From a virus: a DNA stretch of 44,531 nt. The DNA lies in IMG/VR virus record IMGVR_UViG_3300042520_003321, positions 1 to 44,531 of that record. The stretch is one strand, 5' to 3'. Both the position numbers and the translations under genes were made by a program. The notes under the pieces are model-generated. The model was not told the DNA's origin. It was given only the letters and a program-made list of their open reading frames with translations, and ran no database searches. Below, piece by piece: positions 3,494 to 38,095 of this stretch. Numbering within the stretch: the stretch's first letter is position 1; each line of letters begins with the position of its first letter.

Positions 3494-5194
3494 ATGAGCA
3501 AGCAAGTCTTACAAAATAACACATCAGCTGGCATAATAAGGTCTCAAATTAATGATAACTTTACGGAACTTTACACAAGCACGAACGGATTATCCAGTGA
3601 AGTAGACAAATTATTACCCAGCAGCACAATCGTTCAAGCTAGCTCAGCTAATTGGGATTCTGCTTATAGCATAGCTACAGCGTACGAATCTGTCTCCTCT
3701 ACGTTCTTGACATCAGATTCCGATGGTCAAACCCTGTCCTTTGATGAAGGAACAAAAGAGTTGACTATCTCTAGTGGTAATACCGTTTCTTTGAGTGCCT
3801 TAATTGATGGTACAGGAATTGATACAGAAGTAAGAGCGTTAACAGCTAATTGGGATTCTGCTTATAGCATAGCTACAGCGTACGAATCTGTCTCCTCTAC
3901 GTTCTTGACATCAGATTCCGATGGTCAAACCCTGTCCTTTGATGAAGGAACAAAAGAGTTGACTATCTCTAGTGGTAATACCGTTTCTTTGAGTGCCTTA
4001 ATTGATGGTAGCTCTATAGTTGGAGATTATCTTCCTTTATCTGGTGGTACAATGACTGGTCCAATTTCATTCGTGCATCCATATGGTTCAAGACTTGATC
4101 AAGGTATTTACGACTCTAGTCGTGGCGGGTTATCAGGAATTTCTCTAGTATGTTCAATTGATTACGATTTCAATTGGCAAGCTGGGTGGATTACAGCATT
4201 CCAACAGGATCGTTTAACCCCTATGCCACTATATATTGATAGCGGAGCGGGTACATCTTTAAGAGTTTGGAACGGAGCATATGTTGGAGATGGAACTGGT
4301 ACTGAAATTACTCATACTGGAATTACATTTGCTGATAGCACAACTCAAACGACCGCATTTACTGGAGGATTTTTACCACTAACGGGCGGAACAATAACTG
4401 GGGATTTGATTCTTTCTTCTCTAGAAGTTGGTTCCGGTGTTGGTACGGTGTTCTTTGTAGGAGACGGTAAAGTTGGCGTCAATACAGAAACTCCTAATGC
4501 CGAGTTAACAGTGAATGGTTCAATTAGTTCAAATAATACGATTTACGATTCTGTGGGTAGTTCTGCTGATTGGAATTCAGCTTATGAGGTTGCAACTGCT
4601 TATACTGCTGCTTCTTCTACTTTTCTTACCACAGAAACAGACTCTCAAACACTAGCCTTTAATGAGATAACCAAAGACATTTCTATTTCAAGTGGCAATG
4701 TGGTTTCTTTAAGTGCTCTTGCTGCAAATCCAGTTTACCAAGCCACATATTACAAGACTGCGCAACAAAATCTTATCAGCGGAAACACAGATATCACTTT
4801 CGATGGTGACGCATCATGGAATAATCATAATGGCTATATCACCCACGCTGCAAACTCCGCTGATTTTGTTGTAGTTCAATCGGGACTATATCAACTAGAG
4901 TTTAATGCAAGCGTAACAGCAAATGGTGCTTCATGGAATGCGAGTGCCAATAAAATTATTTCCATAGACATTACCCGTCCTCCGATTGCCGAACAAGCTG
5001 CTATCCAACAAACGGCTAATTGTGCAACAGGTCAATTTTACGCTCAAAATGTAAACTCTTCTTTTTATCTGCAAGCTGGCGATATTATAAATCTCAAAGT
5101 TTTTGGCCTTTTTTCCACCGCAACTCCTTTTGTTTCTCCTTTGACAAATACATTTGACTTAAATACTTGGTTTTCTTGGAGATTTATTGGTTAG
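3494..5194 (+). CDS. Putative tail-fibre protein with internal repeats
   Basis: A 566-residue protein with typical fibre modules. The N-terminus has an INDNFTELY peptide related to the INxNF docking motif of other fibres here. Two identical 56-residue repeats follow (DNA 3645-3812 and 3843-4010), with a third diverged copy near 4563-4730. The phage fibre signatures YLPLSGGTMTG and FLPLTGGTITG occur near residues 175 and 294. The C-terminal ~150 residues (ITFDGDASW, VVVQSGLYQLEF, LQAGDIINLKVFG) resemble a C1q/TNF-like jelly roll, a common trimeric receptor-binding tip. Its 3' end overlaps the convergent 5184-5666 gene by 11 nt. The receptor is unknown. Confidence 0.82.
   Translation: MSKQVLQNNTSAGIIRSQINDNFTELYTSTNGLSSEVDKLLPSSTIVQASSANWDSAYSIATAYESVSSTFLTSDSDGQTLSFDEGTKELTISSGNTVSLSALIDGTGIDTEVRALTANWDSAYSIATAYESVSSTFLTSDSDGQTLSFDEGTKELTISSGNTVSLSALIDGSSIVGDYLPLSGGTMTGPISFVHPYGSRLDQGIYDSSRGGLSGISLVCSIDYDFNWQAGWITAFQQDRLTPMPLYIDSGAGTSLRVWNGAYVGDGTGTEITHTGITFADSTTQTTAFTGGFLPLTGGTITGDLILSSLEVGSGVGTVFFVGDGKVGVNTETPNAELTVNGSISSNNTIYDSVGSSADWNSAYEVATAYTAASSTFLTTETDSQTLAFNEITKDISISSGNVVSLSALAANPVYQATYYKTAQQNLISGNTDITFDGDASWNNHNGYITHAANSADFVVVQSGLYQLEFNASVTANGASWNASANKIISIDITRPPIAEQAAIQQTANCATGQFYAQNVNSSFYLQAGDIINLKVFGLFSTATPFVSPLTNTFDLNTWFSWRFIG
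3645..3812 (+). repeat. 168-bp direct repeat, copy 1
   Basis: Base-for-base identical by eye to 3843-4010, 198 bp (66 codons) apart, both in frame within the fibre gene; 30 bp of unique sequence separates them. Identity at synonymous sites implies a recent duplication or ongoing gene conversion. Confidence 0.95.
3843..4010 (+). repeat. 168-bp direct repeat, copy 2
   Basis: Second perfect copy of 3645-3812. It begins with CAGCTAATTGGGATTC and ends with ATTGATGGTA. Confidence 0.95.
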
Positions 5195-7309: not shown

Positions 7310-7323
7310 TTAAATAAATTACT

Positions 7324-7613: not shown

Positions 7614-7630
7614 AGCAATACATACTTATT

Positions 7631-8350: not shown

Positions 8351-8624
8351 CTTTTCTTTCTTCTTGAATCTTCTTTTCTTCTTCTATTTTTTCAGTCAAC
8401 ACGTTTCTCAGAGTATTCAATGCTTCTTCATAAGAAGAACACTCTATTTCTTCAAAATCATGTAAAATATAACCATGATGTTGTACGGTGTAAACTGGAG
8501 AGTAACCATAACTCCATCTTGTTTCTATATACCAATGGCAGTCTCGGTCTTTATGGTGATCTTTTCCTATAAGGAAATACCACTCATCAGTTAATTTTGT
8601 AATTTCATTTATAATAGCGCTCAT
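8337..8624 (-). CDS. Hypothetical protein, 95 aa
   Basis: A 95-residue protein. The N-terminal part has conserved-looking aromatic strands (WYFLIGKDHHKDRDCHWYIETRWSYG), and the last ~30 residues form a highly charged Glu/Lys/Asp helix (EKIEEEKKIQEERKDEDE). An AGAGG sequence 9 nt before the ATG is one of the few SD-like sites in the window. It overlaps the phosphoesterase gene. Function unknown. Confidence 0.75.
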   Translation of the reverse strand: MSAIINEITKLTDEWYFLIGKDHHKDRDCHWYIETRWSYGYSPVYTVQHHGYILHDFEEIECSSYEEALNTLRNVLTEKIEEEKKIQEERKDEDE

Positions 8625-8659
8625 AACATTAACCTCTTAACGCTACTATAAACTTCATT

Positions 8660-8755
8660 CTATTCAACAAGAAGTTTAAAAATTTTAAACGTTTCGTATA
8701 ATGTCGTACCAACAGCAGCAATTAAAAATAAGATCCAAGCAATTTTATCAAACAT
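8660..8755 (-). CDS. Tiny membrane protein, 31 aa
   Basis: An ATG at 8755-8753 opens 31 codons ending in TAG at 8662-8660. The product is a hydrophobic helix (IAWILFLIAAVGTTLY) flanked by MFDK and a C-terminal amphipathic stretch with Lys residues, fitting a single-span small membrane protein. A TATAAT hexamer lies 4 nt upstream of the ATG. No other gene occupies this stretch, but with no homologue recognised the call depends on composition and position. Confidence 0.5.
   Translation of the reverse strand: MFDKIAWILFLIAAVGTTLYETFKIFKLLVE
8674..8690. repeat. Perfect AT palindrome GTTTAAAA-A-TTTTAAAC
   Basis: A 17-bp inverted repeat inside the 3' part of the 31-aa ORF. It could be a protein-binding site, or simply follow from the Lys/Phe codons there. 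Confidence 0.6.
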
Positions 8756-8777
8756 ACACATTATACTTTATAAATTG

Positions 8778-8799
8778 GTTTTGGTTATTCAACCAAAAC
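8778..8799. promoter_or_regulatory. 9-bp stem hairpin in divergent control region
   Basis: GTTTTGGTT and AACCAAAAC form a perfect 9-bp inverted repeat around the 4-nt loop ATTC, between the minus-strand run (ending upstream at 8755) and clpC (start 8853). No T-tract follows on either strand, so an operator or RNA structure is more likely than a terminator. Confidence 0.5.
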
Positions 8800-8838
8800 G
8801 AGCGCCAAAAAAAGTATGTTTTTAATTTTTATTTTTGG

Positions 8839-8846
8839 TGTAAGTA
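8839..8846 (+). promoter_or_regulatory. Late-promoter-like TGTAAGTA before clpC
   Basis: TAAGTA ends 6 nt before the ATG of clpC, in the same position as before the virion genes. This suggests late expression of the unfoldase. Confidence 0.4.
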
Positions 8847-8852
8847 AATTAA

Positions 8853-24158: not shown

Positions 24159-24635
24159 GTGAATAGCGACGAAGATGATATAAATTTATTGATAAGTGAG
24201 CTTTCAAGTTTTGAAGTACCAACAAAAACTCGAGAAGTTGTACAACAGACTACTTCTTTAGAAGAGAAAGATTTGCAACAATATTTTTTAGATAAAACAA
24301 AGGCTTTAATTGATACAGGTTTGGCTACTGTTCAGGATTTAGCTCCTGCTGTAACAAGTTCTGGAGATGCAAAGGAAATGGATGCTTTGTCAAAGCTAAT
24401 GGCGAGCACAGCTCAAGCGTTAGACACCTTACAAAAAACTGCTTTGATCGATAAAAAAGCAAATAGAGACGAACAATTAGAACACATTAAAATCAAAGCA
24501 AAAAAAGAAATAGCTCAACTAACAAAAGGACCTCACCAAATCACAAATAACAATATCTTGGTTGCATCTCGTGAAGAAATTATGAAAAAGCTTTTCTCTG
24601 ATCAACCAGAAGTTTTAAAAATTGATAATAAATAA
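24159..24635 (+). CDS. Terminase small subunit-like protein (gp16-like)
   Basis: A 158-residue protein with a GTG start, supported by the TAAATAACATT element just upstream. It is largely helical: an acidic N-terminus, DKTKALIDTGLATVQDLAPA, DALSKLMASTAQALDTLQK and a coiled stretch, then NNNILVASREEIMKKLF. These helical hairpin features and the C-terminal NNNI...SREE resemble the small terminase subunits (gp16) of T4-like marine phages, which recognise DNA for packaging. No gp17 large subunit is in the window, so context does not confirm it; a scaffold-like virion protein is the alternative. Confidence 0.55.
   Translation: MNSDEDDINLLISELSSFEVPTKTREVVQQTTSLEEKDLQQYFLDKTKALIDTGLATVQDLAPAVTSSGDAKEMDALSKLMASTAQALDTLQKTALIDKKANRDEQLEHIKIKAKKEIAQLTKGPHQITNNNILVASREEIMKKLFSDQPEVLKIDNK
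24627..24634 (+). promoter_or_regulatory. Late-promoter-like AATAAATA
   Basis: TAAATA ends 9 nt before the ATG of the collar-fibre gene. Confidence 0.4.
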
Positions 24636-24643
24636 CTAATACT

Positions 24644-25612
24644 ATGCCAGGAGTCAAAATATCATCTTTACCATCTGCTACACTAGGAGCATCAGACATT
24701 ATTCCTGCTGCAAGAGGAGGAACAACTGTGGGAGTTAATGCTTCTCAAATACTAAATCGCTTTACAAAAATAGAAACTGATGTAATTGCAATCTCGGGTC
24801 GCACTATTCATCCAAGAAATTCAAGTACAATCAATATGTCGTTCAATACGACGACTAGAGAAATTTCTTCTGACTTAGGGCCTTACTTAGATCTAAGCGG
24901 ACGCACGGTTGTTTTGCCGCCAGTAATAGCTATTCCTCCTGGAGCTGTTATGCCTTTTGTTGGACAAAATGCTCCAGTTGGTTGGTTAGTATGTGATGGT
25001 TCGTTGGTTCCTAATGGTAACGGAACAGTTCAAGGCAAATCTTATAACTTTGGGCCATTACATACAGCTCTTGGTACTACATATGGACCTGAAGTAGGTG
25101 GCCAACGCAAACTTCCGGATTTAAGAGGTTACTTTGTTAGAGGTTTTGGTTCAAATGAAGATGCAACAAGCAGCGGAGTGTTTGGTCAAAAACAAGCTGA
25201 TGCTTTTCAGGGTCACAAACACGGTTTACATGATCCTCAACACGGTCATACCGCCTCAACAAATTTAACAGGAGCTCATGATCATAAGACGTTTGGCAGC
25301 GGAACTTTACCAACCTACCTCGAAGATGGCGGATCAGAAAATCCTTGGGGATCAGGTAACTCTGCAAGTTTTGAGCAAACATATAACGTTAACGATTCAG
25401 CAATTAATACTTGTAAAACCTCTTCAGACGGCAATCACTCTCATACCGTTTCAATTGTCGCAAATTCAACTAACGTAAAAGTTTTAAGTCCGACAGGAGA
25501 TCAAGCAACTGCAGGAGCAGAAGACTCAAACGGACCCGGAGGAGCTACTCCGAGAACATCTCACGAAACAAGACCAGCAAACATTGCAATGTTGTATTGC
25601 GTGAAATATTAA
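24644..25612 (+). CDS. Short tail fibre with tail-collar domain, gp12-like
   Basis: A 322-residue protein. After an N-terminal adaptor (ISSLPSATLGASDIIPAARGG) it has a phage tail-collar domain at about residues 98-170: IPPGAVMPFVGQNAPVGWLVCDGS and LPDLRGYFVRGFG. The C-terminal part carries clustered HxH motifs (GHKHG, GHGHT-type HGHT, AHDHK, NHSH) like those that bind metal ions in the T4 gp12 receptor-binding tip. It is expected to form trimers that bind a surface glycan or LPS at irreversible adsorption. It opens the adhesin array and lies directly upstream of the lectin-like gene (1-nt gap). Confidence 0.88.
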   Translation: MPGVKISSLPSATLGASDIIPAARGGTTVGVNASQILNRFTKIETDVIAISGRTIHPRNSSTINMSFNTTTREISSDLGPYLDLSGRTVVLPPVIAIPPGAVMPFVGQNAPVGWLVCDGSLVPNGNGTVQGKSYNFGPLHTALGTTYGPEVGGQRKLPDLRGYFVRGFGSNEDATSSGVFGQKQADAFQGHKHGLHDPQHGHTASTNLTGAHDHKTFGSGTLPTYLEDGGSENPWGSGNSASFEQTYNVNDSAINTCKTSSDGNHSHTVSIVANSTNVKVLSPTGDQATAGAEDSNGPGGATPRTSHETRPANIAMLYCVKY

Positions 25613-25613
25613 A

Positions 25614-26459
25614 ATGTCAAATTCAATTAATTTATTAAATGATTACGAATGCTTAAAGGATTCTCTTCAAAAAATTAATAATAATTTTGAATTTTTAACT
25701 TCTGCTGTTCGTAGTTTCAAATCATGTTGTGATTACAAACCTTGCTGTGAACATCTCTTGATTAATCCTGTCGCTGGACGAAATGCTACATATGTTGGCT
25801 TTGGAGGATCATCAGGAGAAACACTTTATGAGCAGCACTGGATTCACAACTTTACGTGGTCTAGTAAATTCATTAATTTAAAAAAAGAAGACTTGTTAGA
25901 AAATTCAACGTATTCTGAAAATGCGGTTCGTGTTAACAACAGCATACGTTTGAGTAATGGTTTTTTTACAAAAGGCAATGTTTTTCATGATATTCCGGTT
26001 CATTATAAAGATGAAGAAAATGCTATTATTGATTGGAATGCTTATTATGAGTTTTCAATTGGAGGCAGTCAAGCAGGAGGTAGTGCCTTTAGAGATGGGC
26101 TAACCTTTATATTACAAAGCAATTCTCCCACTGCTGTTGGTGGAGGTAGCGAACAATTAGGATTTGGTGGAATTCCTTTTAGCATAGGAATTAGTTATGA
26201 TACATATCAAAACACCACAAATGATACTAATGCAAACACAATAGAAATAAATGTCAATGGAAGTCTTGCTTCAATCAGAGAGGTTGTGTGTCCTTTTTCG
26301 TTGAGAGGTACTCTTGGAACAACTAAAACAATTTACAATTGGGTTGAATATCACAATGGGATATTAAACGTTTACATATCAGAGACCAGTACTAAACCTT
26401 CTTCTTCTATCATAAGTGAACCTATAAATGTTAATAGCTACTTAACAAGGTTCGCATAA
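25614..26459 (+). CDS. Adhesin with L-type lectin-like domain
   Basis: A 281-residue protein. Residues ~10-30 hold the shared module ECLKDSLQKINNNFEFL. A Cys-rich segment follows (CCDYKPCCEHL). From ~55 to the end it resembles bacterial/legume L-type lectins: FRDGLTFILQ, GGGSEQLGFGGIPFSIGISYDTYQN (the G-rich loop and Asp/Tyr of the Ca/sugar site), TIEINVNG and a closing WVEYHNGILNVYIS. This fold binds sugars, so a receptor-binding role is likely. It lies between the collar fibre and the 1343-aa adhesin. The fold call is by motif; the ligand is unknown. Confidence 0.75.
   Translation: MSNSINLLNDYECLKDSLQKINNNFEFLTSAVRSFKSCCDYKPCCEHLLINPVAGRNATYVGFGGSSGETLYEQHWIHNFTWSSKFINLKKEDLLENSTYSENAVRVNNSIRLSNGFFTKGNVFHDIPVHYKDEENAIIDWNAYYEFSIGGSQAGGSAFRDGLTFILQSNSPTAVGGGSEQLGFGGIPFSIGISYDTYQNTTNDTNANTIEINVNGSLASIREVVCPFSLRGTLGTTKTIYNWVEYHNGILNVYISETSTKPSSSIISEPINVNSYLTRFA
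25641..25697 (+). other. Shared adhesin module, copy in lectin-like protein
   Basis: Codes YECLKDSLQKINNNFEFL; related copies lie at 27161-27217, 30577-30633, 32629-32690 and 37058-37117, and similarity is also visible at the DNA level (AAAAAATTAATAATAATTTT in two of them). Confidence 0.8.
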
Positions 26460-26462
26460 GTA
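26455..26462 (+). promoter_or_regulatory. Late-promoter-like CATAAGTA
   Basis: TAAGTA ends 9 nt before the ATG of the large adhesin gene. Confidence 0.4.
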
Positions 26463-26471
26463 AAGTTACAC

Positions 26472-29400
26472 ATGCCTTGGTATACTACATCACTTGAAAT
26501 ATATGCTATCACCACAGCAGCAAGTACTGGCATATTTGATGACATACCTTTGCCTCCTCCCTGTGATGCAAGTCACGGCTGTAGTAAAGCTCAATTTAAT
26601 CTCTTCGGAGTTCCGGAAACAGGTGCAGATATACTCTTAGGTACGATAAATTTAAATAATGCAGGAAATAAATCAGCTACAGGAGCAATAGATACTGGAG
26701 TACCCGTAGGATATGAATATTTAGGAGATCCTACATTTCGCTTTTCAAAGATTACCGTAGGATCAGCTGATATAAATCAACTCGTCCGTAGTGATGATAC
26801 CTTACATTTAAGGCAGGTGTGTTCTCTTATAAGTTGCCATAGTGAAGTTGGGTGGTGGGTTGTAAAAGATACTACAACTGGAAATATACTTTTTAATGGA
26901 TGTCCTGAAGGAGATGCTGCTTCTATTGTATTGCAGCTTACTCCTCCTGTAACACCGACACCGACACCGACTCCCACTCCGGAACCAACTCCTACTCCGA
27001 CTGCTCCTCCTCCCCCTCCACCTGCTACACTAGCTCCTTGTCAACCATCTTTACATCCAAAGTACATAAAACCGACTGCTTTGGAAGAAGAATACGCTAA
27101 ATGCATGGAAGAAACAAAAAAAGATATTCCTTCTTTAACTGGCATTCAAATAATTGATGGAGAAGAATGTATTGGAGATTCATTACAAAAAATTAATAAT
27201 AATTTTGCAATTTTAACAAAAGAGTACGAGGGACTTTTAATCGACAACTGTGCTCAAAATTATAGTTGTATGTTTTGTTATACTAGTTCTGGAACAACAG
27301 CAAGATCTAGTAATCCTTATTATCCTTATGGATGCGAAACTGGACACGAAGCAGAAAAACCATTAATACGTGGTGGACTGTGGGGGCAATTTTATGGCAC
27401 AACTAGTGTATATTATGAAATGACGGCTGGAAATTTCTTGCCTCTTCCCTTGACATCTCCTGTTCAGTATACTGTTTTAGACATTCAAACCAATATACCT
27501 AAAAGTGGTTTGATAGCAATCGGTTATTTTTCTCCTCCTTCTACTGGCACGTATACTTTTTATACTGAATCTAAGGACGGCTCTGGTGTCTGGCTTGGAG
27601 ATAAAGCTCTAGGGTGGTCTGGCCGCACGGGTAGTAACGCTTTAGTAAATAATGGTTTAGGAACAGCTCATGCTGTGGCAACGGTAAGTGGAACAATCGC
27701 GTTAACAGCTGGAATATATTATCCAATAAGAATAGTATATGAAAATAAAAACGGAGCGGGCACATTTGAATTTTCTTGGAGTGGACCAGGAATAACTCGA
27801 ACTACTGATTTGGGTTCAAGTTTTTGGTATAGAGGAGATGATACTTGGACGACAGAAACACCAGTCGGTGGCAGCGACTTTAGAGGTAATCTAGGTTATC
27901 CTACTACAGACTCTACAAGCAAATATTATAAGCTATGGGATTATCAAAGAAGTGCAGCAACGATTCCTTGGCAAAGTCCTGAACAATTGCTTGGTATAGA
28001 TTTTTATCTCAAACGAGATTCTCAGGTAATTGACTCAGCTCCTCATTTACGAGTAAATGTATATCAAGAGCCTACAACCACTCCTTACTATCCATTGCAT
28101 TACGGTAAAACTTCTTCTGTGTTGTTAACTTCTGTTTATTACGACTTAACTAATGTTACAGAATGGACCAATCACAATATCGCTCCACCTAAAACAGCTG
28201 AAATTAATAAACCGCTGTGGGTTGAGTTTACACGTTTGCCTGAGCTAACGTACAATCCTCTTGCACCAAAAACTATAAATTCTCAGTACATATTCAGTAA
28301 TTGGTATAGATTTTCTCATTGCGCCGCTACAGGCAGTACTACCCCATGTTATCCTAATCATGTCGATCCTTCAACTGGATATTGGGCGTTTGATTTAGCT
28401 ACCAATAGTATTAACTATACACAAAACCACACAGACGCAACAGGTATAGTATCAAATACGTTATATGAGGATTATGAGTTAGAGGCAACTCTCACTTCTA
28501 GTGCAACGGACAATGATAACGTGGGAATTGTTTTGGGGTTTAAAACAATTGACAATGTAGAGCAAACACTAATTGCTTGGAGAAACGGAGGAGGAGGATT
28601 TGGGGGAAATCAACAGTGGAGCGTACGGTTAAATAGTTTTCGGGATCCAGCTATAGCTCCCACAAACACATGGACTCCGCTAAACACTTTGTCTAATCCA
28701 AGAAATTGGGAAGGAGCCGAAACAACTATAAAGGTAGTAAAGAAAAACGGAATAATAACAATTAACTCCACTGACTTCAATAGCACAACTTATTCTTCTG
28801 ATAGCGAAATTACAATCGATTTAAATGCTGTGCCGTCATTGATTCCGTTTAAGAAATCAGCAATTGGATTTGTGGTTAACGAACAATTAAACAGCACGTG
28901 GAAAAACATAAAATTTAATCCTCCTGCTCAACCAACACCAGAAGGAATAATAGGAGTTGGTAACGTAACCTATGTTACTCTGCCTTCAGCAACAAAGAAC
29001 CTCTTAGAAACAACCCAAATAGAATCTTCGGCTTGTATTGCCACAGCAATAACCAATTTAAATTTTAATTTCAATTCATTGTCAGCAATCGTTGCTTCGT
29101 TAAATAATTGTTGTAAATCTAATGGTGGCTATGGAGTTGGCAATCCTATTGACAAAAACAAAAATCTTACTCCTCCGACTCCTAATGAGCCTGATCTACT
29201 CGATGAACCGTGTGTAATCGAAAGAGAAAGCGTATTAGATAGATTTACATTACAAGGAGAAGGCGGTTATCAATGGAATACTTTCAATTTTGTTGACAAA
29301 GATAAAGTATTTACATTCCAAAGTTACGCCAATACATACTTTCCTGGCATAATTGGAGGTAGTCCAAATAATCCTACTACGGAATCCTATAATACATACA

Positions 29401-30503
29401 AATACACACAGACCATTGCAGGTAATACGTATTACGGCCTACAAAATTGTTTAAGAATTTGTGCTGGTAATGATAATATATCTGGAATTTTTAGAGATGG
29501 TGTTGTTTTTACTGCTGGTACACGTCGTTATCATAAATGGATAAAAGACAATTTATTAGACTTTAAAGATCTCTTTATGCCTTCTTCGTATGCAACTAAA
29601 TATATCCAAGCCCTTTTAACTAATGACGGAAAGCTATATAATTTAGACTTAACTGATGCTCCTGCAGTTCCGGTTGGAGATCCTCTGCCAACCACTACTA
29701 TAGTACCTCAAGTAATGGAAGGAACAAGGGTTAATGGAACAACAAAAACGCTAGATGACGTTACTCGCTTTGTAGCAATAAATCAAGCTCATAATTCGGA
29801 TATGATTGTGGCTTGTGCTGATAATACAGTCTGGCACGTTGTCGTTGGGTCTTCCCTTACTCCTGGAGACTATCAAGCTCGTCAGATAGATAATATGCTG
29901 GCTTCTGATATTTTATTTGCTCAAATAGGAGACCCAGGAGATTCGTGTTTTGTTGTCTTAAAAAATGACCCGACTAAACTTTATCGGTTTGTTACGTCTG
30001 CTGGCAATATAGTTTCAAGAGATCTGTCAAATTCTGGATGGCTTGAAAAGAGAAGCCCAACCCCTGTAGATTTAAGTCCTTTTGTTTATTATGGATCAAA
30101 CAGTACGACATTATTGGAACCGGGGGAATTTTTCATGCATGGAGCTAGTAATGAATTTCATTACACCTTTATGACGAACAAATATATTCATACGTTTAAA
30201 GCTGCGTATAACGGCACATACAATGGTTCATCTCCTTTATACAAAAAATACTCTTATCCGGCAGGAGTAAATCCAATACGTATGTCTACAAGTACTTCGT
30301 ATGCGATGGTAGCTGAATTGTCTGATGGATTTTATCTGTTGAGTAGCAATGGAATTGCCTCATTGAATACAAATGCGGGCAGTGGAGGAGAATATTATAC
30401 AGCATATCAAAATATGGACAAGATTCAGTCTTGGACAGATTTAGCTTTGTTCTTGGCGCCATCTCGTCCAGATGTACCCATTTTTAGCAATCCGTGCTCT
30501 TAA
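26472..30503 (+). CDS. Large multidomain adhesin (PA14, lectin-like, propeller-like)
   Basis: A 1343-residue fibre/adhesin. Order: an N-terminal domain (1-158), a PT/PP stalk (~159-190), the ECIGDSLQKINNNF module (~230), a PA14/GLEYA-like domain (~300-456; LWGQFYGTT, GYFSPPSTGTYTFYTESKDGSGVWLGD, AGIYYPIRIVYENKNG), a laminin-G/concanavalin-like domain (~633-818; NVGIVLGFK, WRNGGGGFGGNQQWSV), a degenerate second module (ACIATAITNLNFNFNSL, ~854), and a C-terminal part (~910-1343) with repeated LLTNDGKLYNL/ACADNTVWHV-type strands suggesting a beta-propeller. PA14 and LamG-like folds commonly bind glycans. No enzyme motif seen. Virion location is inferred. Confidence 0.78.
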   Translation: MPWYTTSLEIYAITTAASTGIFDDIPLPPPCDASHGCSKAQFNLFGVPETGADILLGTINLNNAGNKSATGAIDTGVPVGYEYLGDPTFRFSKITVGSADINQLVRSDDTLHLRQVCSLISCHSEVGWWVVKDTTTGNILFNGCPEGDAASIVLQLTPPVTPTPTPTPTPEPTPTPTAPPPPPPATLAPCQPSLHPKYIKPTALEEEYAKCMEETKKDIPSLTGIQIIDGEECIGDSLQKINNNFAILTKEYEGLLIDNCAQNYSCMFCYTSSGTTARSSNPYYPYGCETGHEAEKPLIRGGLWGQFYGTTSVYYEMTAGNFLPLPLTSPVQYTVLDIQTNIPKSGLIAIGYFSPPSTGTYTFYTESKDGSGVWLGDKALGWSGRTGSNALVNNGLGTAHAVATVSGTIALTAGIYYPIRIVYENKNGAGTFEFSWSGPGITRTTDLGSSFWYRGDDTWTTETPVGGSDFRGNLGYPTTDSTSKYYKLWDYQRSAATIPWQSPEQLLGIDFYLKRDSQVIDSAPHLRVNVYQEPTTTPYYPLHYGKTSSVLLTSVYYDLTNVTEWTNHNIAPPKTAEINKPLWVEFTRLPELTYNPLAPKTINSQYIFSNWYRFSHCAATGSTTPCYPNHVDPSTGYWAFDLATNSINYTQNHTDATGIVSNTLYEDYELEATLTSSATDNDNVGIVLGFKTIDNVEQTLIAWRNGGGGFGGNQQWSVRLNSFRDPAIAPTNTWTPLNTLSNPRNWEGAETTIKVVKKNGIITINSTDFNSTTYSSDSEITIDLNAVPSLIPFKKSAIGFVVNEQLNSTWKNIKFNPPAQPTPEGIIGVGNVTYVTLPSATKNLLETTQIESSACIATAITNLNFNFNSLSAIVASLNNCCKSNGGYGVGNPIDKNKNLTPPTPNEPDLLDEPCVIERESVLDRFTLQGEGGYQWNTFNFVDKDKVFTFQSYANTYFPGIIGGSPNNPTTESYNTYKYTQTIAGNTYYGLQNCLRICAGNDNISGIFRDGVVFTAGTRRYHKWIKDNLLDFKDLFMPSSYATKYIQALLTNDGKLYNLDLTDAPAVPVGDPLPTTTIVPQVMEGTRVNGTTKTLDDVTRFVAINQAHNSDMIVACADNTVWHVVVGSSLTPGDYQARQIDNMLASDILFAQIGDPGDSCFVVLKNDPTKLYRFVTSAGNIVSRDLSNSGWLEKRSPTPVDLSPFVYYGSNSTTLLEPGEFFMHGASNEFHYTFMTNKYIHTFKAAYNGTYNGSSPLYKKYSYPAGVNPIRMSTSTSYAMVAELSDGFYLLSSNGIASLNTNAGSGGEYYTAYQNMDKIQSWTDLALFLAPSRPDVPIFSNPCS
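26949..27024 (+). repeat. PT/PP-coding low-complexity stalk
   Basis: ACACCGACACCGACACCGAC and related triplet repeats encode Pro-Thr and Pro-Pro runs; the ACCGACTCC units resemble those of the minisatellite at 3361. Confidence 0.85.
27161..27217 (+). other. Shared adhesin module, copy in PA14 adhesin
   Basis: Codes EECIGDSLQKINNNFAIL, nearly identical to the module in the lectin-like protein, but internal (residue ~230) rather than N-terminal. Confidence 0.8.
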
Positions 30504-30527
30504 AGAAGTAACTTTTTTATTTGCTTG

Positions 30528-30535
30528 AATAAATA
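30528..30535 (+). promoter_or_regulatory. Late-promoter-like AATAAATA
   Basis: TAAATA is exactly 5 nt before the ATG at 30541, after a 37-nt intergenic gap. Confidence 0.5.
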
Positions 30536-30540
30536 GATTT

Positions 30541-32556
30541 ATGGCATCTTGCAATTTAACAGAATATATACATGATCACGAATGCATTGGGGATTCATTA
30601 AAAAAGATAAATCAAAATTTTATAAATGTAGAATCTAAAGTGTGCGAGGGCCTCAAACCCGTAGCCGGACCTGGTATATCTGTTGACAAACAAATTACGG
30701 AACAAAAAGATCATCAATTTGTTATATCTACTACAAACTCTTTTGATTATAGAACAACTTTTGATTCTTACAATAATTTTGCATCTCAAATAGCCTTGCC
30801 TTTGTTGGATCAAACAACGCTTAATGTTACAAAATTTCCTTATAATGGTACAGAGGCGGATGTCAAACCAACAACCACCTTTACTACTGTTTCCCGTCAA
30901 TCTGATAGTATTCCTAAGGTAACTCTTTATTGGACTGCTGGAACAACAGCGGATAATATAACAGTTTATCCTTTAAATAGCGCAGCTGATGAAATGAATA
31001 GAGGATCCATTTGGTTTAATGAAACTGTTACGTGTTTGTTGAGCTCAAGTGAAAAAATGTATGTAGGTGGAGCATTTACTGAAATTGGCGGAATTTTTGC
31101 TCAAAAGTTAGCCACTATAAACAATACAAATGGCACAGGAACGTTTATTACTGAGCCAATTCCAAATTTAGGATCCTTAGGAGAAGTTAGAACCATAAAA
31201 GAAGAAACTATAACAGTTTCCGGAACGTCTCACAAACTCTTAATTGTTGGAGGTTCGTTTGAAAGTATTGGCGTAAGAGGTAGAGGTCTTGTTATATTGG
31301 ACCAGCAAACAGGACTATACTATCCTTGGTATGTTAACGGCGAAGTAAACTCCGTTCGTGTGTATGGAAATCTATTATATGTAGGCGGTGTTTTTGATTA
31401 CGTAAACTATGGAGCTTCTAGCGCAACATCATATTCCGGTCAAAGATTGCAAACAAACGGCTTTTTTGTTATTAATTTGCCAAGCATGATTAGCGGACTA
31501 GCTATTAGTTCGGCATCTAATTATTCTTCTCCTTTTGCTGAAAGAGCTGTTATCAATTCATTTACTGTATACGACAAAATTCTGTATATTGGAGGAGATT
31601 TTAAAATTAAACAAAACGACAAGATAGTAAATCAAAATTTATATTCTATTGATCTCTCTCCAACCATATCTACTACTGGGCCTTCTACAGGTTTTTTAAA
31701 TCTTTGGGAACCTATGCCCGCTTTTCAGGTTATACTAAACGGACCTGTTAAAGGTTTGCATATAGATAATTCTATTGCAGCTGGCGGATCTGCTTATCTC
31801 TATGTTGGTGGAGAATTCTCTAAAGTTTATACAAGTTCGGAATTTTATAACGAGCCTCGAGTCAAGTTACAAAAAACAAACGCTTCAAACGCTATTTGTT
31901 TCCAATTGACGGATTCTAGTACTATTAAGACAACTCCTTTGTTGACAACATGGAAACCAAATTTTAGAGGAGCAGTTACTTCGTTTGTTTCTCATGACAA
32001 TGCTGTTGATAGCTTAGTGTATTGTTATGGGCTATTCAATTCGGTTAATGATATATCAGTTAGTTATTTGACCGCGATTAAGAAAGCTTCTTCTTTAACT
32101 TCAGGACAAGTATTTCCAAATTGGTTTCCTGGAATACAAAATGGTCCCGCTAAATTAAACAACTCAATTATCAAAGATGGAAACACTTTAATAATTGGAG
32201 GTAACTTTTCAGAAATATCTGGCATTTATAGATACAATTTAGCAAAAATTTCTTGTCCAATTTCCGCTACGTTCCCGGTTATTGTTTGGGATTGTGGAGC
32301 AGAAGTTATTTCACCAGGAAGCAAACTCACAATGGATTTCTACTCTTCGAATACAATGAGAGTTTCAAGTGCTGTTTTTGATACAGAACGAGTTCATGCT
32401 ACAGTCTTTCCAATAATGCCAGAAACATTTGCTGGGCTTACTCCTGGCCAGCCAATCAGATTTTTTGTCAGAAGACCTGGTAAATCGTGCTACACGGATG
32501 ATACATTTACTAGCAATGCTTATGTAATAGGTTGGAAAGTCGATTTTAATCAATAA
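30541..32556 (+). CDS. Fibre protein with delta-60-type beta-propeller
   Basis: A 671-residue protein. The N-terminus has the HECIGDSLKKINQNF module. From ~170 to ~570 there are repeated strands of the delta-60 type: MYVGGAFTEIGG, LIVGGSFESIGVRGRGL, LYVGGVFDYVNY, LYIGGDFKIKQND, LYVGGEFSKVY, LIIGGNFSEISGIYRYNLAKI. Six or seven such repeats would close a beta-propeller, a fold often used for ligand binding. The C-terminal ~100 residues form a separate domain (VIVWDCGAEVISPG). It is the third of the consecutive adhesins sharing the module. Ligand unknown. Confidence 0.8.
   Translation: MASCNLTEYIHDHECIGDSLKKINQNFINVESKVCEGLKPVAGPGISVDKQITEQKDHQFVISTTNSFDYRTTFDSYNNFASQIALPLLDQTTLNVTKFPYNGTEADVKPTTTFTTVSRQSDSIPKVTLYWTAGTTADNITVYPLNSAADEMNRGSIWFNETVTCLLSSSEKMYVGGAFTEIGGIFAQKLATINNTNGTGTFITEPIPNLGSLGEVRTIKEETITVSGTSHKLLIVGGSFESIGVRGRGLVILDQQTGLYYPWYVNGEVNSVRVYGNLLYVGGVFDYVNYGASSATSYSGQRLQTNGFFVINLPSMISGLAISSASNYSSPFAERAVINSFTVYDKILYIGGDFKIKQNDKIVNQNLYSIDLSPTISTTGPSTGFLNLWEPMPAFQVILNGPVKGLHIDNSIAAGGSAYLYVGGEFSKVYTSSEFYNEPRVKLQKTNASNAICFQLTDSSTIKTTPLLTTWKPNFRGAVTSFVSHDNAVDSLVYCYGLFNSVNDISVSYLTAIKKASSLTSGQVFPNWFPGIQNGPAKLNNSIIKDGNTLIIGGNFSEISGIYRYNLAKISCPISATFPVIVWDCGAEVISPGSKLTMDFYSSNTMRVSSAVFDTERVHATVFPIMPETFAGLTPGQPIRFFVRRPGKSCYTDDTFTSNAYVIGWKVDFNQ
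30577..30633 (+). other. Shared adhesin module, copy in propeller protein
   Basis: Codes HECIGDSLKKINQNFINV, about 12 residues from the N-terminus. Confidence 0.8.
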
Positions 32557-32564
32557 TTAACATC

Positions 32565-33134
32565 ATGGCTACATCTTCCCCAACAACTATTCCTGAAGCT
32601 CCTTACACTGACGCTCCTTATCGTTTGAGTGATTCATGGTGCATAGGAGACTCAATCGACGTAATAAACGCTAACACTGAGTATTTTGAAAACAACAAAG
32701 TTTCAAAAACGGGTGATACGATGACAGGGGCATTAACTGTAAAAAGCGACATAAACATTGAAGGAGGAAAGCTAGACCTCAATTGTGGAGCTCTCTCAAA
32801 TTTTATCGTGGATGTAAAAAACGTACAAATCTCTACTTTGACTCCTGGTCAAAAATATACTATCGAACACGGAGATTGTGGTAAAATAATTGTAGTTGAA
32901 TCCCAAGGTGGAGTTAATTGCAATATAACAGTTCCGGATGATCTTCCAGTTGGTTTCAATGTCATGTTAGTCAAAAGAGGTCAAAGCAATTACAGAATTT
33001 TAGCTGATGATCCAACAAGCGGTATGTTTATTAGAAACGTTAATAATTACATTAGTATTTCTAAATTATGGGGTATCTGTAATCTTGTTATAATCGCTTC
33101 TAAAACAGCTCTTATTTCTGGAGATTTAAATTAA
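32565..33134 (+). CDS. Fibre protein with shared module and TMTG motif
   Basis: A 189-residue protein. A short N-terminus leads to SWCIGDSIDVINANTEYF, a diverged copy of the shared module, then KTGDTMTGALTV, a classic phage fibre motif. The rest is beta-rich (YTIEHGDCGKIIVVESQGG, CNITVPDDLPVGFNVMLVKRG), resembling small phage fibre tips. A weaker TAATTA, 5 nt upstream of the ATG, replaces the TAARTA element. The stop overlaps the ATG of the RCC1-like gene (TAATG), so expression is coupled. Confidence 0.75.
   Translation: MATSSPTTIPEAPYTDAPYRLSDSWCIGDSIDVINANTEYFENNKVSKTGDTMTGALTVKSDINIEGGKLDLNCGALSNFIVDVKNVQISTLTPGQKYTIEHGDCGKIIVVESQGGVNCNITVPDDLPVGFNVMLVKRGQSNYRILADDPTSGMFIRNVNNYISISKLWGICNLVIIASKTALISGDLN
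32629..32690 (+). other. Shared adhesin module, diverged copy
   Basis: Codes SWCIGDSIDVINANTEYF: CIGDS and IN.N are kept, while the final Phe pattern has changed. Confidence 0.65.
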
Positions 33135-34966
33135 TGTTTGGCTTGCCTACTCACAGAACCCGTACGCCAATTAGAGCTGATGGTCCACAATGTCCGGACG
33201 ATGGAACCGTTCCGAGTATTGCATATGGATGTTGCCCTACTTGCCCCCCCGTAATCAAATCAGCTCTGACTCTGGCTGAAATGAAGTGGAATCATTATTC
33301 TTTGTTAATTTCTCAAGATTGGCAAAACGTAAGATCTTGGGGTTCGAGAACTACATATGGAAATACAGGACCAGGGGCAGATTCTAACGATCCGCTAACA
33401 ATACCAATTAATTGGGTTGGCGCCGTTAAAGAAGATATTGTGTATATGCGTTCTGTTGGATATGATATGTATTCTTTGTTTAGAACTAAACAAGACAGCG
33501 TTTATGCAACTGGTTCTACGACTTCGATTTTTAATGGAGTCACGCCCGGAAATAATTGGGAACGAATTTTAACCGATGTAATACATATATCTATAGGAGG
33601 AGGAAGCAGCACCGCTTCTTCCATATACGTAAAAAGAAATGGCAAAGTTTATGGGCTCGGGGCTGCTAGAACTTCAGGGTTTGGGAATATTACAACTGCT
33701 TTAACACAAGAAGGTTTAACTGAACTTAACTATCTAGGCATTGATAATGCCTCTAAAGCTTGGTTGTTGTATTTTGGAGACAACGTCAATACTACAAAAT
33801 CTTTCGTTTTAAAAACCGACGGAACTCTTTGGGCTTGTGGCTATAATGCGGACGGAGGTTTGGGAGTAAATTCATCAAACACGCATGTTATGGCTTGGTC
33901 ACAGGTAGTTGATTCGACAGGCACTCCTCTTCAAAACGTCAAAGATGTTATAACAACGACTGGGGCCCCAGTAGCAGTAGGAGCTCCTACTCCAGGAAAT
34001 GCTTCTTGTTTTTTGACTACAGACGGATTTGTATATACTTGTGGGTCAAATACATATGGAGAACTTGGGTTAGGTTTATCATCTGGAACTACAAGATTAT
34101 ACGCTGAAAAAGTTACAAGTATTTCTGGAGCTGATTTATTTTGTCCTTCTCGGCACGGTCATAGTATATTAGTTGCAACCACAAACAACGAAGTGTATAC
34201 TTGGGGAATAAACTCTCACCGAGAATGCGGAACTAATGCTGCTGGAGCTGTCTATACTGCAACAAAGGTGGCGTTTCCGAGTGATAAAAGAGCTATAGAC
34301 GTTCACGGAGGAGGTAATTACGGAGAAACAGAAGGAGCGTTTACTGTTGTTAGAGAAGACGGTACCGTTTTTGTTTGTGGTTGTAATAACACATTCGCTT
34401 TAGGAGTTCCCGACTTTGACGGACAAAACATCCCTGTGTTTACTAGAAATGATTACTTTGGTTTCGATTCTCCTAAATTAATTGAGCCTTGGAGATTTCC
34501 TTTAACTATTGTCAACGGAGGAAGTTATGTAGCCGGAAGCACTGTTATCGAAAACGCTACACTATACCTGGACAAATCTGTTACTCCTCCTGGCATAGCT
34601 GCAAGAACAGAACGAGTTTACGTGAATCCGGGATATTATGTAACCGGTCCTGGCATTCCTTACGGAACGTTTGTAACATACGTTACGGGAGTTAGTGGAA
34701 ACATGATAGGATTAAGCGAGCGAACTCTTATTGCACAAGCAAGCGCTACTCTTACGTATATTAACTATCCAAAGGCCGCTCGAGCAGATATATGTGGATA
34801 TCCTGGAGAAATGGCTATGAAAGTTGTTAGTGAAGATTCTACGCTTTATCAATGTGGTTGGAATCAGCAAGTTCCATTGGGGGACCCCAATGCATTTTGG
34901 AATTTTAATCCACGAATCGGAACGCAAACAGTCAACGTACCTACTGCATTTGAAGCTGATTTCTAA
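33134..34966 (+). CDS. RCC1-like beta-propeller protein
   Basis: A 610-residue protein. Several RCC1/ATS1-type repeats are visible: VRSWGSRTTYG (~66), VYGLGAARTSGFG (~172), WACGYNADGGLG (~232), VYTCGSNTYGELGLG (~299), VYTWGINSHRECG (~354), VFVCGCNNTFALG (~413) and, after an insert of ~110 residues, LYQCGWNQQVPLG (~570). About seven blades would close a propeller. RCC1 domains are best known in eukaryotic nucleotide exchange, but RCC1-like repeats also occur in secreted bacterial and phage proteins. An N-terminal Cys-rich part (CPDDG..CCPTCPP) precedes it. A host-binding role is inferred from the neighbours. Confidence 0.8.
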   Translation: MFGLPTHRTRTPIRADGPQCPDDGTVPSIAYGCCPTCPPVIKSALTLAEMKWNHYSLLISQDWQNVRSWGSRTTYGNTGPGADSNDPLTIPINWVGAVKEDIVYMRSVGYDMYSLFRTKQDSVYATGSTTSIFNGVTPGNNWERILTDVIHISIGGGSSTASSIYVKRNGKVYGLGAARTSGFGNITTALTQEGLTELNYLGIDNASKAWLLYFGDNVNTTKSFVLKTDGTLWACGYNADGGLGVNSSNTHVMAWSQVVDSTGTPLQNVKDVITTTGAPVAVGAPTPGNASCFLTTDGFVYTCGSNTYGELGLGLSSGTTRLYAEKVTSISGADLFCPSRHGHSILVATTNNEVYTWGINSHRECGTNAAGAVYTATKVAFPSDKRAIDVHGGGNYGETEGAFTVVREDGTVFVCGCNNTFALGVPDFDGQNIPVFTRNDYFGFDSPKLIEPWRFPLTIVNGGSYVAGSTVIENATLYLDKSVTPPGIAARTERVYVNPGYYVTGPGIPYGTFVTYVTGVSGNMIGLSERTLIAQASATLTYINYPKAARADICGYPGEMAMKVVSEDSTLYQCGWNQQVPLGDPNAFWNFNPRIGTQTVNVPTAFEADF

Positions 34967-34974
34967 GATAAGTA
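34967..34974 (+). promoter_or_regulatory. Late-promoter-like GATAAGTA
   Basis: TAAGTA exactly 5 nt before the GTG start at 34980; supports that GTG over a longer upstream frame that would overlap the RCC1-like gene. Confidence 0.5.
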
Positions 34975-34979
34975 TCACC

Positions 34980-37007
34980 GTGCCAACTCTTTCGCCAATT
35001 CTTACAACCACTCCCAACACCCCTTCAAATTATAATGTTGGTATGGCGGAGACACTTTCTTGGATTCCTATTGAAGGAGCTGGAAGACCACTATATGCTC
35101 AAGCAACTTATACCATAAATCCAGCAAATCTTACGCTGAGCCCTGGTAGTATCACTATAGGAGCAATTGAAATTAAAGATGGAAATTCTTCGATTGTAGC
35201 TGATGTCGAAACCGTAGGAGGAGGAAACGCTCTGAGGGTTCTTACTCAAGAGTTGGATCCAATTTCAGATACAATTTCGATAGGAGATAAAAACGGAAAC
35301 AACGTAACCGTAAATTCTACTACTTCTTCATTAAATGTACATTTAACTAACACAGTTAATGTAAGTGGATCTGTTTCCTTGACAAATCAATTAACGGGCA
35401 TCACTGTTTTAAATCCTGTTACATCCGTTTCAGTAATGAATCAATTAACTAGCATGACAGTATCGAATCCTGTTACATCTGTTAGTGTATCAAATTTATT
35501 GTCTTCATTCACCGTACTAAACCCAATTAGTTCAATTTTTATAACGAACCAATTAACTGGTATTGCTGTTACAAATGATGTTCAAGTACATGCTTCATCC
35601 ACATTTCCTATATCCGGTTCCGTTACAGTTTTAAATCCTATAACATCCATTAGTATTACTAATCAATTAACAGGAATAACTGTTTTAAATCCGGTTACTT
35701 CAATCAGTGTTTCGAATTTTCCAACACAATTAAGTTCTGTTAGTATTACTAATCAATTAACAGGAATAACTGTTTTAAATCCGATTACTCAAGTTACTAC
35801 ATTACCACAACCAACTCAGCTGGATGCATTTGGTAGATTAAGAGTGTCTTCCCCTATGACTTTGTTTGATTCTTCACATCGTTATAAGGATAACAATTTA
35901 TGGTCTACCCTATCTGCAAATGGAGGTTCGGTTTCATTCAATGCATCACAGGGATTGATGGAATTAAATGTTACTAATACGGCAGGAGCAAGTGCAATAA
36001 GAGAAACAACAAAAGTCTTTAGTTACCAACCCGGAAAGTCCTTGCTTGTCATGAATACATTTGTCATGGCTTCTTCTGCTACCAATTTAAGACAGAGGGT
36101 AGGATATTTTGGAGAGCAGAACGGAATATACTTTCAGTTAGATGATGGCAATATTAGTATAGTTAAAAGATCGCTTGTCACAGGTTCCATTGCAGAGAGT
36201 GTAGTTTCTCAATCTAATTGGAATGGCGATAAGCTAGATGGAACTGGTTCTTCTGGTATAGTTTTAGATATAACCAAAGCTCAAATTCTTTGGACGGATA
36301 TTGAATGGCTAGGAGTTGGAACCGTTCGTGTCGGATTCGTTATCAATGGCCAGTTCATTGTTTGTCACTCATTCCATCATGCTAATATTATAGATTCAAC
36401 TTATACTACTACAGCTTCTTTGCCTTTAAGATATGAGATTATTAACAAAGGAGCAACAGATGGATCTCGCACAATGAAGCAAATTTGCTCTACAGTAATT
36501 TCTGAAGGTGGTTATGAATTAAGAGGCTTACAGCAAGCAGTTTCTATTCCAATAACTGCACCAAGAACATTTGCGGTAGCTGGTACGTTTTATCCAATTA
36601 TTTCAATTCGCTTAAAAAATTCTCCAGATAGGTTGGATGCAATTGCTATTTTAACTGCTCTATCAATACTTGGACAAGGAAATGGTATAAACTATAACTG
36701 GCAGGTTAAAGCAAGTGGTGTCACAACAGGAGGAAGTTGGGTTGACGCCGGAGTTGATAGTGCCGTTCAATACAACATTACAGGAACAAGCTATGCAGGA
36801 GGAAGAATTTTAGCAAGTGGCTTCTTAAATTCTTCTAATCAAGGTTCTCCGAATTTGGATATTCTTAAAGAAGCTTTGTTTAAGTTTCAATTAGAACGAA
36901 ACGATTTAACAAAAACTCCTTTTGAATTAACTTTGATTGCTGCAACAGATACTTCGAATAATTCTGGTATGTTTGCTTCTATGGATTGGGAAGAAATAAG
37001 TAGATAA
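34980..37007 (+). CDS. Fibre with beta-repeat stalk and conserved phage C-domain
   Basis: A 675-residue protein with a GTG start at 34980. Its N-terminus (LSWIPIEGAGRPLYAQATYTIN) is homologous to the 119-aa protein at 40723 (FSWIPVQGAGRQLYAKATYCIN). Residues ~115-270 are tandem repeats alternating NPVTSVSV and NQLTGITVL, likely a beta-solenoid or extended stalk. The C-terminal ~400 residues carry LDAFGRLRVSSPMTLFDSSH, YQPGKSLLVMNTF and RQRVGYFGEQNGIY, a module I recall from virion proteins of marine T4-like phages. It is a virion fibre by composition; the receptor is not known. Confidence 0.82.
   Translation: MPTLSPILTTTPNTPSNYNVGMAETLSWIPIEGAGRPLYAQATYTINPANLTLSPGSITIGAIEIKDGNSSIVADVETVGGGNALRVLTQELDPISDTISIGDKNGNNVTVNSTTSSLNVHLTNTVNVSGSVSLTNQLTGITVLNPVTSVSVMNQLTSMTVSNPVTSVSVSNLLSSFTVLNPISSIFITNQLTGIAVTNDVQVHASSTFPISGSVTVLNPITSISITNQLTGITVLNPVTSISVSNFPTQLSSVSITNQLTGITVLNPITQVTTLPQPTQLDAFGRLRVSSPMTLFDSSHRYKDNNLWSTLSANGGSVSFNASQGLMELNVTNTAGASAIRETTKVFSYQPGKSLLVMNTFVMASSATNLRQRVGYFGEQNGIYFQLDDGNISIVKRSLVTGSIAESVVSQSNWNGDKLDGTGSSGIVLDITKAQILWTDIEWLGVGTVRVGFVINGQFIVCHSFHHANIIDSTYTTTASLPLRYEIINKGATDGSRTMKQICSTVISEGGYELRGLQQAVSIPITAPRTFAVAGTFYPIISIRLKNSPDRLDAIAILTALSILGQGNGINYNWQVKASGVTTGGSWVDAGVDSAVQYNITGTSYAGGRILASGFLNSSNQGSPNLDILKEALFKFQLERNDLTKTPFELTLIAATDTSNNSGMFASMDWEEISR
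35340..35800 (+). repeat. Stalk-coding repeats, includes perfect 43-bp repeat
   Basis: Imperfect repeats of NPVTSVSV/NQLTGITV codons. The stretch at 35651-35693 is repeated exactly at 35741-35783 (90 bp apart), indicating recent conversion or duplication. Confidence 0.85.
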
Positions 37008-37010
37008 ATA
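37003..37010 (+). promoter_or_regulatory. Late-promoter-like GATAAATA
   Basis: TAAATA 5 nt before the ATG at 37016; its TAA is also the stop of the previous gene. Confidence 0.4.
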
Positions 37011-37015
37011 ATAAT

Positions 37016-38095
37016 ATGGCTTGTACAGGAGATTTAAACGTTGCAAAAATTAGTCGTACGGAGTGTATAGGAAACTCTTTAGTTACGATTAATAGAAATT
37101 TCTCTAATTTGGATATTGCTATCTGTAACGCGTCAAATCTTGCAGATGAAAGATACAATCTAATAGAAAGCGCCGTTTTCTCTCAAGTAATGAATGTAAG
37201 GTTGTCATTAAGCCCAACCAACCCAGTTACAACCACTGATACTACATCTAACACAATATATCTCCATCCTTACAAAGGAACAACCGTATCTCTATGGAAT
37301 GTTGTTTCAAGTAAGTGGGAAACCAAAACTTTTAATAGCACAATTTCTGAACAACTTACAGGTTGTGCTGCAAACGCAAACTATGATGTGTATTTGTATC
37401 ACGATGGAACAAAATTTGGTTTAGAGATGGTTGCTTGGACGAGTGATGTCGTTGGGACATTACCGCCATTAACTGATATTAAAAACGGAGTGCCAGTCAA
37501 AGTCGCTCAACCAAACAAACGTCTTATTGGGTGCCTAAGAACTACTGATGCCTGCATGACTGAACTTAGTTTTGGTAAAACGCCTGTCTCTGGTGGTAGT
37601 CATCCAAAATTATTCTTATGGAATTTATATAATCGGGTTCCTGTCTCATTTTCAATCTTAGACTCTGGTGGGGGAGCTGGGGTGTTAGGAGAGTGGGCTA
37701 CAACAGTAAACGGAGATACAGCAGGAAGCAACGGACCTTTTGAAAGATTCGGATCAAGCTCAAATAACAAAATCTCTTTTATTAGTAGGGATGACCTAAC
37801 ATTAAACCTAAACACGTCTCATTATGTTGACAGTGCTCGTTATTTTTATTTTATTCATTCGTTGGATTTAGAAACTCCTACTGTTGCTCAATATCTAACA
37901 AAAACACCAGGAGTGCCAATATTTCAGACATTTGGTAACCAAACGATGTCGCACTCTTATCACACTGTAGTTCCTAGTGGCTACCATTTTGTTCAATTAG
38001 CCACTATGACTAATGAAAATCAGCCAGTGAAATTTTCTGTATGGACGAACGACAAACGTTCTGGTGGCACAGCGGGATATATTGCTGAGTTCTAA
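37016..38095 (+). CDS. Fibre protein with shared module and jelly-roll-like end
   Basis: A 359-residue protein. Residues ~15-35 contain TECIGNSLVTINRNFSNLD, the shared module. A middle region (IYLHPYKGTTVSLWNVVSSK, ANYDVYLYHDGTKFGLEMVAW, RLIGCLRT) matches a domain common in phage and prophage fibres. The C-terminal part (KLFLWNLYNRVPVSF, IHSLDLETPTVAQYL) is beta-rich and resembles virion proteins of large marine phages. It is the last plus-strand gene of the adhesin array and converges on the hsp20 gene across 31 bp. Confidence 0.8.
   Translation: MACTGDLNVAKISRTECIGNSLVTINRNFSNLDIAICNASNLADERYNLIESAVFSQVMNVRLSLSPTNPVTTTDTTSNTIYLHPYKGTTVSLWNVVSSKWETKTFNSTISEQLTGCAANANYDVYLYHDGTKFGLEMVAWTSDVVGTLPPLTDIKNGVPVKVAQPNKRLIGCLRTTDACMTELSFGKTPVSGGSHPKLFLWNLYNRVPVSFSILDSGGGAGVLGEWATTVNGDTAGSNGPFERFGSSSNNKISFISRDDLTLNLNTSHYVDSARYFYFIHSLDLETPTVAQYLTKTPGVPIFQTFGNQTMSHSYHTVVPSGYHFVQLATMTNENQPVKFSVWTNDKRSGGTAGYIAEF
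37058..37117 (+). other. Shared adhesin module, copy in last array gene
   Basis: Codes TECIGNSLVTINRNFSNLD, close to the N-terminus as in the lectin-like and propeller proteins. Confidence 0.8.

Follow-up and report, generated by a model that had tools for sequence, protein, structure and literature searches.

Do neighbouring fibre-like genes of one virus carry different receptor-binding domains on a single common mount? The question is raised by the virus record IMGVR_UViG_3300042520_003321, analysed here over its complete positions 1 to 44,531 (44,531 nt; hereafter the window), in which an array of rightward fibre-like genes occupies 24.6–38.1 kb. An earlier note on this DNA had claimed that at least five of these genes share a short motif, and the motif was found in the five it named (25614, 26472, 30541, 32565 and 37016; Table 1). 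A profile built from 180 modules from outside the window, with no window sequence in it, recovered every copy with scores of 24–47 bits (E 1.3e-6 to 8.9e-14), while none of 20 shuffles of the window proteins exceeded 10 bits. Two other genes of the array, 24644 and 33134, have no module. Two of the copies are irregular and were counted against the main reading presented below: copy 2 is internal, being preceded by an N-terminal extension of ~220 aa with a Pro-rich linker, and the copy in the adaptor 32565 has lost the final Phe. A second copy in 26472 was not significant with the non-window profile. The protein beginning at 3494, whose INDNF had been taken for a related sequence, was rejected as a sixth member with the same profile (E 0.24). 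Its N-terminal part resembles gp9 (gp9 of cyanophage Syn33, blastp E 4e-7), and comparison of this part with the PDB yielded designed repeat proteins as chance matches and nothing else; the 3494–5194 protein may be the long-tail-fibre connector of the window phage.

Table 1. Coordinates in the window of the module copies, of the genes that carry them and of neighbouring features. E values of module copies were obtained with the non-window profile.
Position	Strand	Feature	Evidence
3494..3595	+	N-terminus of the 3494 protein with INDNF; gp9-like, not a module copy	profile, blastp
24159..24635	+	small conserved protein, left border of the array	weak phrog_445 (terminase small subunit) match
24644..25612	+	Collar (PF07484) tail fibre protein without module	Pfam
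25614..26459	+	module and legume-type (L-type) lectin head, 281 aa	Lectin_legB E 6.5e-17
25614..25715 (aa 1-34)	+	module copy 1, 25614 protein, ECLKDSLQKINNNF	E 1.6e-8
26472..30503	+	26472 protein, 1343 aa: extension, Pro-rich linker, internal module, PA14/GLEYA, C-terminal head	
27129..27233 (aa ~220-254)	+	module copy 2, 26472 protein, ECIGDSLQKINNNF	E 1.5e-12
28995..29099 (near aa 850)	+	possible degenerate extra copy, 26472 protein, ACIATAITNLNFNF	E 7.7
30541..32556	+	module and beta-propeller (delta-60-like) head, 671 aa	predicted model, Foldseek
30541..30645 (aa 1-35)	+	module copy 3, 30541 protein, ECIGDSLKKINQNF	E 5.2e-12
32565..33134	+	module adaptor, 189 aa, ends ALISGDLN	sequence comparison
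32598..32702	+	module copy 4, 32565 protein, divergent, WCIGDSIDVINANT	E 1.3e-6
33134..34966	+	RCC1 propeller without module, N-terminus MFGLPTHRTR	Pfam
34944..37007	+	phrog_1645 virion structural protein family, array flank	PHROGs; homologues in cyanophages
37016..38095	+	module and beta-sandwich head, 359 aa	AF2 model, Foldseek
37025..37129 (aa 4-38)	+	module copy 5, 37016 protein, ECIGNSLVTINRNF	E 8.9e-14

The module comprises ~35 residues, lies nearly always at the extreme N-terminus and follows the consensus M..C..T..I..xECIGDSLxxINxNFxxLDxxVC. In the majority of 149 ORFs a conserved Cys stands at residue 12–17, and the extended stretch upstream of the signature holds a conserved Ile. A degenerate DNA pattern retrieved 71 stretches in viral contigs, all of which encode the same N-terminal module, and a profile-guided search added to this set, giving a combined total of 232 distinct modules in 81 viral contigs. 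Several genes of receptor-binding type in one phage carry this same short sequence at their N-terminus, with a maximum of nine copies in one record of 217 kb. The module is covered by no Pfam or PHROGs family among the proteins whose matches were located, and a profile search of the PDB with it gave chance matches only. When the consensus, and likewise seven diverse modules joined together, were compared by tblastn to 50,697 phage records, a set that may leave out very near records, no match was obtained. This absence is meaningful at the sensitivity used, since the same consensus recovers 69 viral loci from a database of equal size; a linker ubiquitous among phages is not what these searches describe. 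In ~85,000 bacterial and archaeal species, each represented by one genome, the pattern had three hits, none of them with the module profile, and no mention of the motif was found in a literature search of open-licence papers.

Behind this constant N-terminus, the proteins diverge as had been claimed: the heads form 30–34 unrelated blastp clusters. Many of their C-terminal domains are of tail-fibre or glycan-binding type, with RCC1 (8), Collar (7), gp53-like C-terminal (5) and Peptidase_S74 (2) domains counted by Pfam, further DUF5122, lectin, PA14/GLEYA and pectate-lyase-like domains, and many tail-fibre families among the PHROGs matches. In the window, the L-type lectin proposed for 25614 was recognised by Pfam. 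For 26472, the proposed PA14 domain was recovered as PA14/GLEYA (Pfam 2.3e-14 and 7e-18), whereas its proposed LamG domain found no Pfam support; residues 569–816 have a PHROG virion-structural match only, and the C-terminal head (residues ~915–1335) is common to L051 and L023/L054. The model of 30541 is a beta-propeller, as proposed, with eight-bladed and WD40 propellers as best Foldseek matches, and the module lies in the same ORF in 17 of its 22 homologues. The 32565 head is a small fibre-tip-like domain. For 37016, described before as jelly-roll-like, the modelled beta-sandwich does resemble jelly-roll and phage tail proteins: Foldseek matched it at low TM to the receptor-binding protein of lactococcal phage 1358, to C1q/TNF-like domains and to fibre domains of cyanophage A-1(L), and at TM 0.6–0.7 to proteins of uncultured phages. 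Collar heads, module-free in 24644, are joined to the module in other phages.

Tandem arrangements were noticed in other contigs. At 6918–10412, L083 (G023) carries three module genes in a row, all with heads of the 37016 type, the last two being similar to 37016 over the N-terminal ~240–270 residues only; as far as sequence tells, this trio is a tandem duplication with diverging heads. In L067/L080 (G003), three tandem paralogues of ~460 aa with the module variant GIPISExxCIxDSL follow the propeller gene.

Exchange of heads in place was scanned for by comparing module genes of different contigs together with 1.5 kb of DNA on either side. In 30 pairs, distributed over seven slots, both flanks were homologous and blastp at E 0.05 found no match between the heads; because the pairs are not independent, it is better to count slots. 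In these pairs the homology enters the module and mostly ends within ~10 residues of the module end, and the genes belong to different head clusters in six of the seven slots. Most clear-cut is a further pair, L061/L158 versus L153: the sequences are 83% identical along 4.9 kb that reach to residue 36, the heads (171 and ~320 residues) are unrelated, and homology resumes a few bases past the stop codons. The window itself takes part: 37016 and its counterpart in G003 (L080:3353-4255) are 73% identical along 1,329 bp that extend into the module, have unrelated heads and are 82% identical downstream. These swaps at the module end, in seven slots and one further pair, indicate that divergent heads are exchanged horizontally behind the peptide, in line with the claim that they are interchangeable. 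Homology that stops near the module boundary would also be seen if the module were kept mainly as a DNA recombination joint for head cassettes, with little function as a protein. We regard this as highly improbable, as it is the protein sequence that is conserved, the signature persisting while the remaining module positions are ~19% identical between different-head pairs, and as a pair of cysteines in the module covaries.

We think it likely that the module is a virion-attachment and oligomerisation peptide for exchangeable tail-fibre heads in a group of uncultivated T4-like phages. The stretch ECIGDSL...INxNFxxL would start a helix that opens a trimeric coiled coil; the module would then seat the protein on a common tail site, most likely the baseplate wedge, and all sequence past the module would serve as an exchangeable head for receptor binding. 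Swaps would occur by recombination between the module end and the stop codon and, because recombination falls there, heads could be changed or added while the mount stays untouched. In some slots the mount would be a separate small adaptor (32565) followed by a module-free head gene (33134). For the module proteins we infer trimerisation, a docking partner, presence in the virion and a role in host range.

The helix is seen in structure predictions. In the AF2 monomer model of 37016 (69 alignment rows; mean pLDDT 83, ~90 over residues 11–40) a helix spans residues 18–57, beginning at the module IGNSL, and in the monomer model of 30541 a helix spans residues 16–34; the first ~15 module residues are extended in the prediction and the helix follows, so that it begins at the module in both models. 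A module that is a trimerisation nucleus only, that is the start of a coiled coil, with docking located elsewhere in the protein or mediated by others, would account for these helices, of which the one in 37016 reaches residue 57, and would agree with the lack of genome-specific co-variation among modules. A generic coiled-coil start, however, would need neither a near-invariant GDSL..INxNF nor an upstream extended stretch with a conserved Ile, and would not be confined to one phage group, which makes this explanation unlikely in our eyes. The co-variation result itself was counted against the attachment-peptide reading. At positions outside the signature, similarity between modules is not significantly higher within a genome than between genomes (difference 0.01, p = 0.095); hence a signal of co-evolution with a genome-specific partner is absent. 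If the module does bind a partner, the site it uses is thus probably one that the whole group has conserved.

Two cysteines of the module covary, ~11 residues before and 20 after the central Cys (62/6/8/44, p 5e-18), and continue to do so after reduction of the set to 55% identity (p 2e-5), while the central Cys is independent of them. Both are present in copy 3 (residues 4 and 35) and in copy 5 (residues 3 and 37); copy 1 lacks the pair. The simplest reading is an optional disulphide that would link the N-terminal tail to the helix.

The preference for the baseplate wedge comes from the resemblance of INxNFxxL to an N-terminal motif of T4 gp9 and gp10, gp9 being a protein whose N-terminal domain binds gp7 in T4 (PMC3004832). 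INxNFxxL aligns with KINxNFxELY, which is N-terminal in T4 gp9/gp10 and in cyanophage gp9. Like the module, these proteins of T4-like phages have a GDxL stretch before the motif, but IN follows GDxL after ~6 residues there and after 2 in the module, and the Cys signature is missing from gp9/gp10. By hhalign, the two match with a probability of 77% and E 2.1e-5 over 14 columns only, a shortness that was also counted against the attachment-peptide reading; scores of the module profile with single gp9/gp10 proteins were mostly weak. The loose pattern GDx[LI]-x(2-9)-[IVL][NR]x[ND][FS]xx[LIF], written after both groups had been viewed, matches 120 module ORFs, six of 11 gp9/gp10 proteins and none of the non-module ORFs of the loci. 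None of the 106 module proteins scanned has a Pfam match to gp9/gp10, and N-terminal homology over ~200 residues was not found. A Pfam search for the gp10 domain in ten window proteins and these 106 gave none at the thresholds used; one weak Gp10_C match (E 0.016) was seen in L085. Seating of the fibre proteins on the wedge by the module is proposed tentatively, as a somewhat less than even prospect.

The surroundings of the array bear on where docking may take place. The window also encodes baseplate-type genes (a gp25-like wedge protein and a hub), which adjoin the fibre array, as well as a gp44-type clamp loader, ≤38% identical to those of annotated phages, and a ribonucleotide reductase pair. 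At the left border, 12 of 13 contigs have a homologue of 24159 immediately upstream of a module gene; the window differs in that the Collar gene 24644 sits between 24159 and the first module gene. The 24159 protein was dropped as the leading idea for a docking partner because it resembles a small terminase. The other border consists of the phrog_1645 gene, an sHSP-like gene and ribonucleotide reductase. This terminase-like gene, together with the 'head and packaging' category given to phrog_1645 in PHROGs, would suit a module that docks to the head or neck, on capsid or whisker fibres, and not to the tail. Such a location is set against by the tail collar, gp53-like and S74 domains of the heads, by the baseplate genes next to the array and by the likeness of the motif to the baseplate proteins gp9/gp10, and we find it distinctly improbable.

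If the module does mount fibres on the tail, the module proteins of one phage might compete for equivalent baseplate sites, so that single virions would carry mixed heads, drawn at random or weighted by expression, and a clonal burst would vary in host range; the module would then descend, in minimal form, from the gp9/gp10 N-terminus and have an optional disulphide lock. This extension is speculative and we give it little credence.

Heads are not always fused to the module. The stop codon of the adaptor 32565 overlaps the start codon of 33134 (TAATG), and in the window, as in its closest relatives, the RCC1 propeller is a separate gene immediately after a 32565-type module protein; in 10 other cases it shares an ORF with the module. 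Likewise, the C-terminal head of 26472 is joined to the module in two instances and split off after an adaptor in two. Unrelated split heads start with MFGLPTHR (33134) or MFGVYTLR (L023:2828 onward), and the adaptors preceding them end with ALISGDLN or AWISGDIV. The MFG starts and ISGD ends suggest a second docking step, a lead that comes from three sequences. More adaptor homologues were sought with 32565 and none was confirmed. In the gp37/gp38 arrangement of T4-like phages a distal adhesin sits on the fibre tip, and an adaptor followed by a separate head protein is comparable in arrangement; the heads behind 32565-type adaptors differ in being RCC1 propellers or 26472C-type domains.

The suggestion that such a combinatorial system had not been described as such does not stand, the concept being known from Klebsiella phages, RaK2 and Ackermannviridae/CBA120. 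In the KP32, KP34, Menlow and PhiK64-1 groups of Klebsiella phages, multiple receptor-binding proteins have N-terminal 'conserved peptides' (PMC6872550). As here, a short N-terminal peptide precedes divergent heads, and heads are exchanged horizontally with broken synteny. Each of those groups has its own peptide, down to 7 residues, thought to sit on the T4gp10-like domain of an anchor protein (PMC6872550), a domain that our scans did not find here; in contrast, the module is one peptide family with up to nine genes per genome, and its heads are mostly not recognised as depolymerases. In RaK2 (PMC10253068) and in Ackermannviridae/CBA120 (PMC11414711), N-terminal conserved docking parts are common to multiple receptor-binding proteins, several of which are assembled through them, and whole genes can be obtained from relatives, as in the module family. 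These systems build an ordered network of unlike parts from folded XD (gp10-like) and head domains, whereas the module family has the same small peptide on every member. The shuffling of protein fragments in general has been linked to host interaction (PMC10684548).

Within the collections searched, the module family, its copy number per genome, the range of its heads, the gp9/gp10-like motif and the Cys pair appear to be new. As read from its genes, the system adds a new and clear case to a kind of modular host-range system that is already known. It offers natural and precise in-place exchange of heads at one defined junction, its 35-position profile can serve as a marker for likely receptor-binding genes in uncultivated T4-like phages whatever the head, and it suggests a link of the mount to the N-terminal motif of the T4 baseplate.

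Further features were noticed in passing. A Shine-Dalgarno-like stretch precedes only 5 of the 28 window genes examined, and A/T-rich sequence, often with TAAATA, lies upstream of the window fibre genes; these sparse Shine-Dalgarno stretches and A/T-rich leaders may bear on the identity of the host. Outside the array, at 12142–15134 of L089 (G007), a 292-aa ORF splits the large ribonucleotide reductase gene and is possibly an intron- or intein-like insertion.
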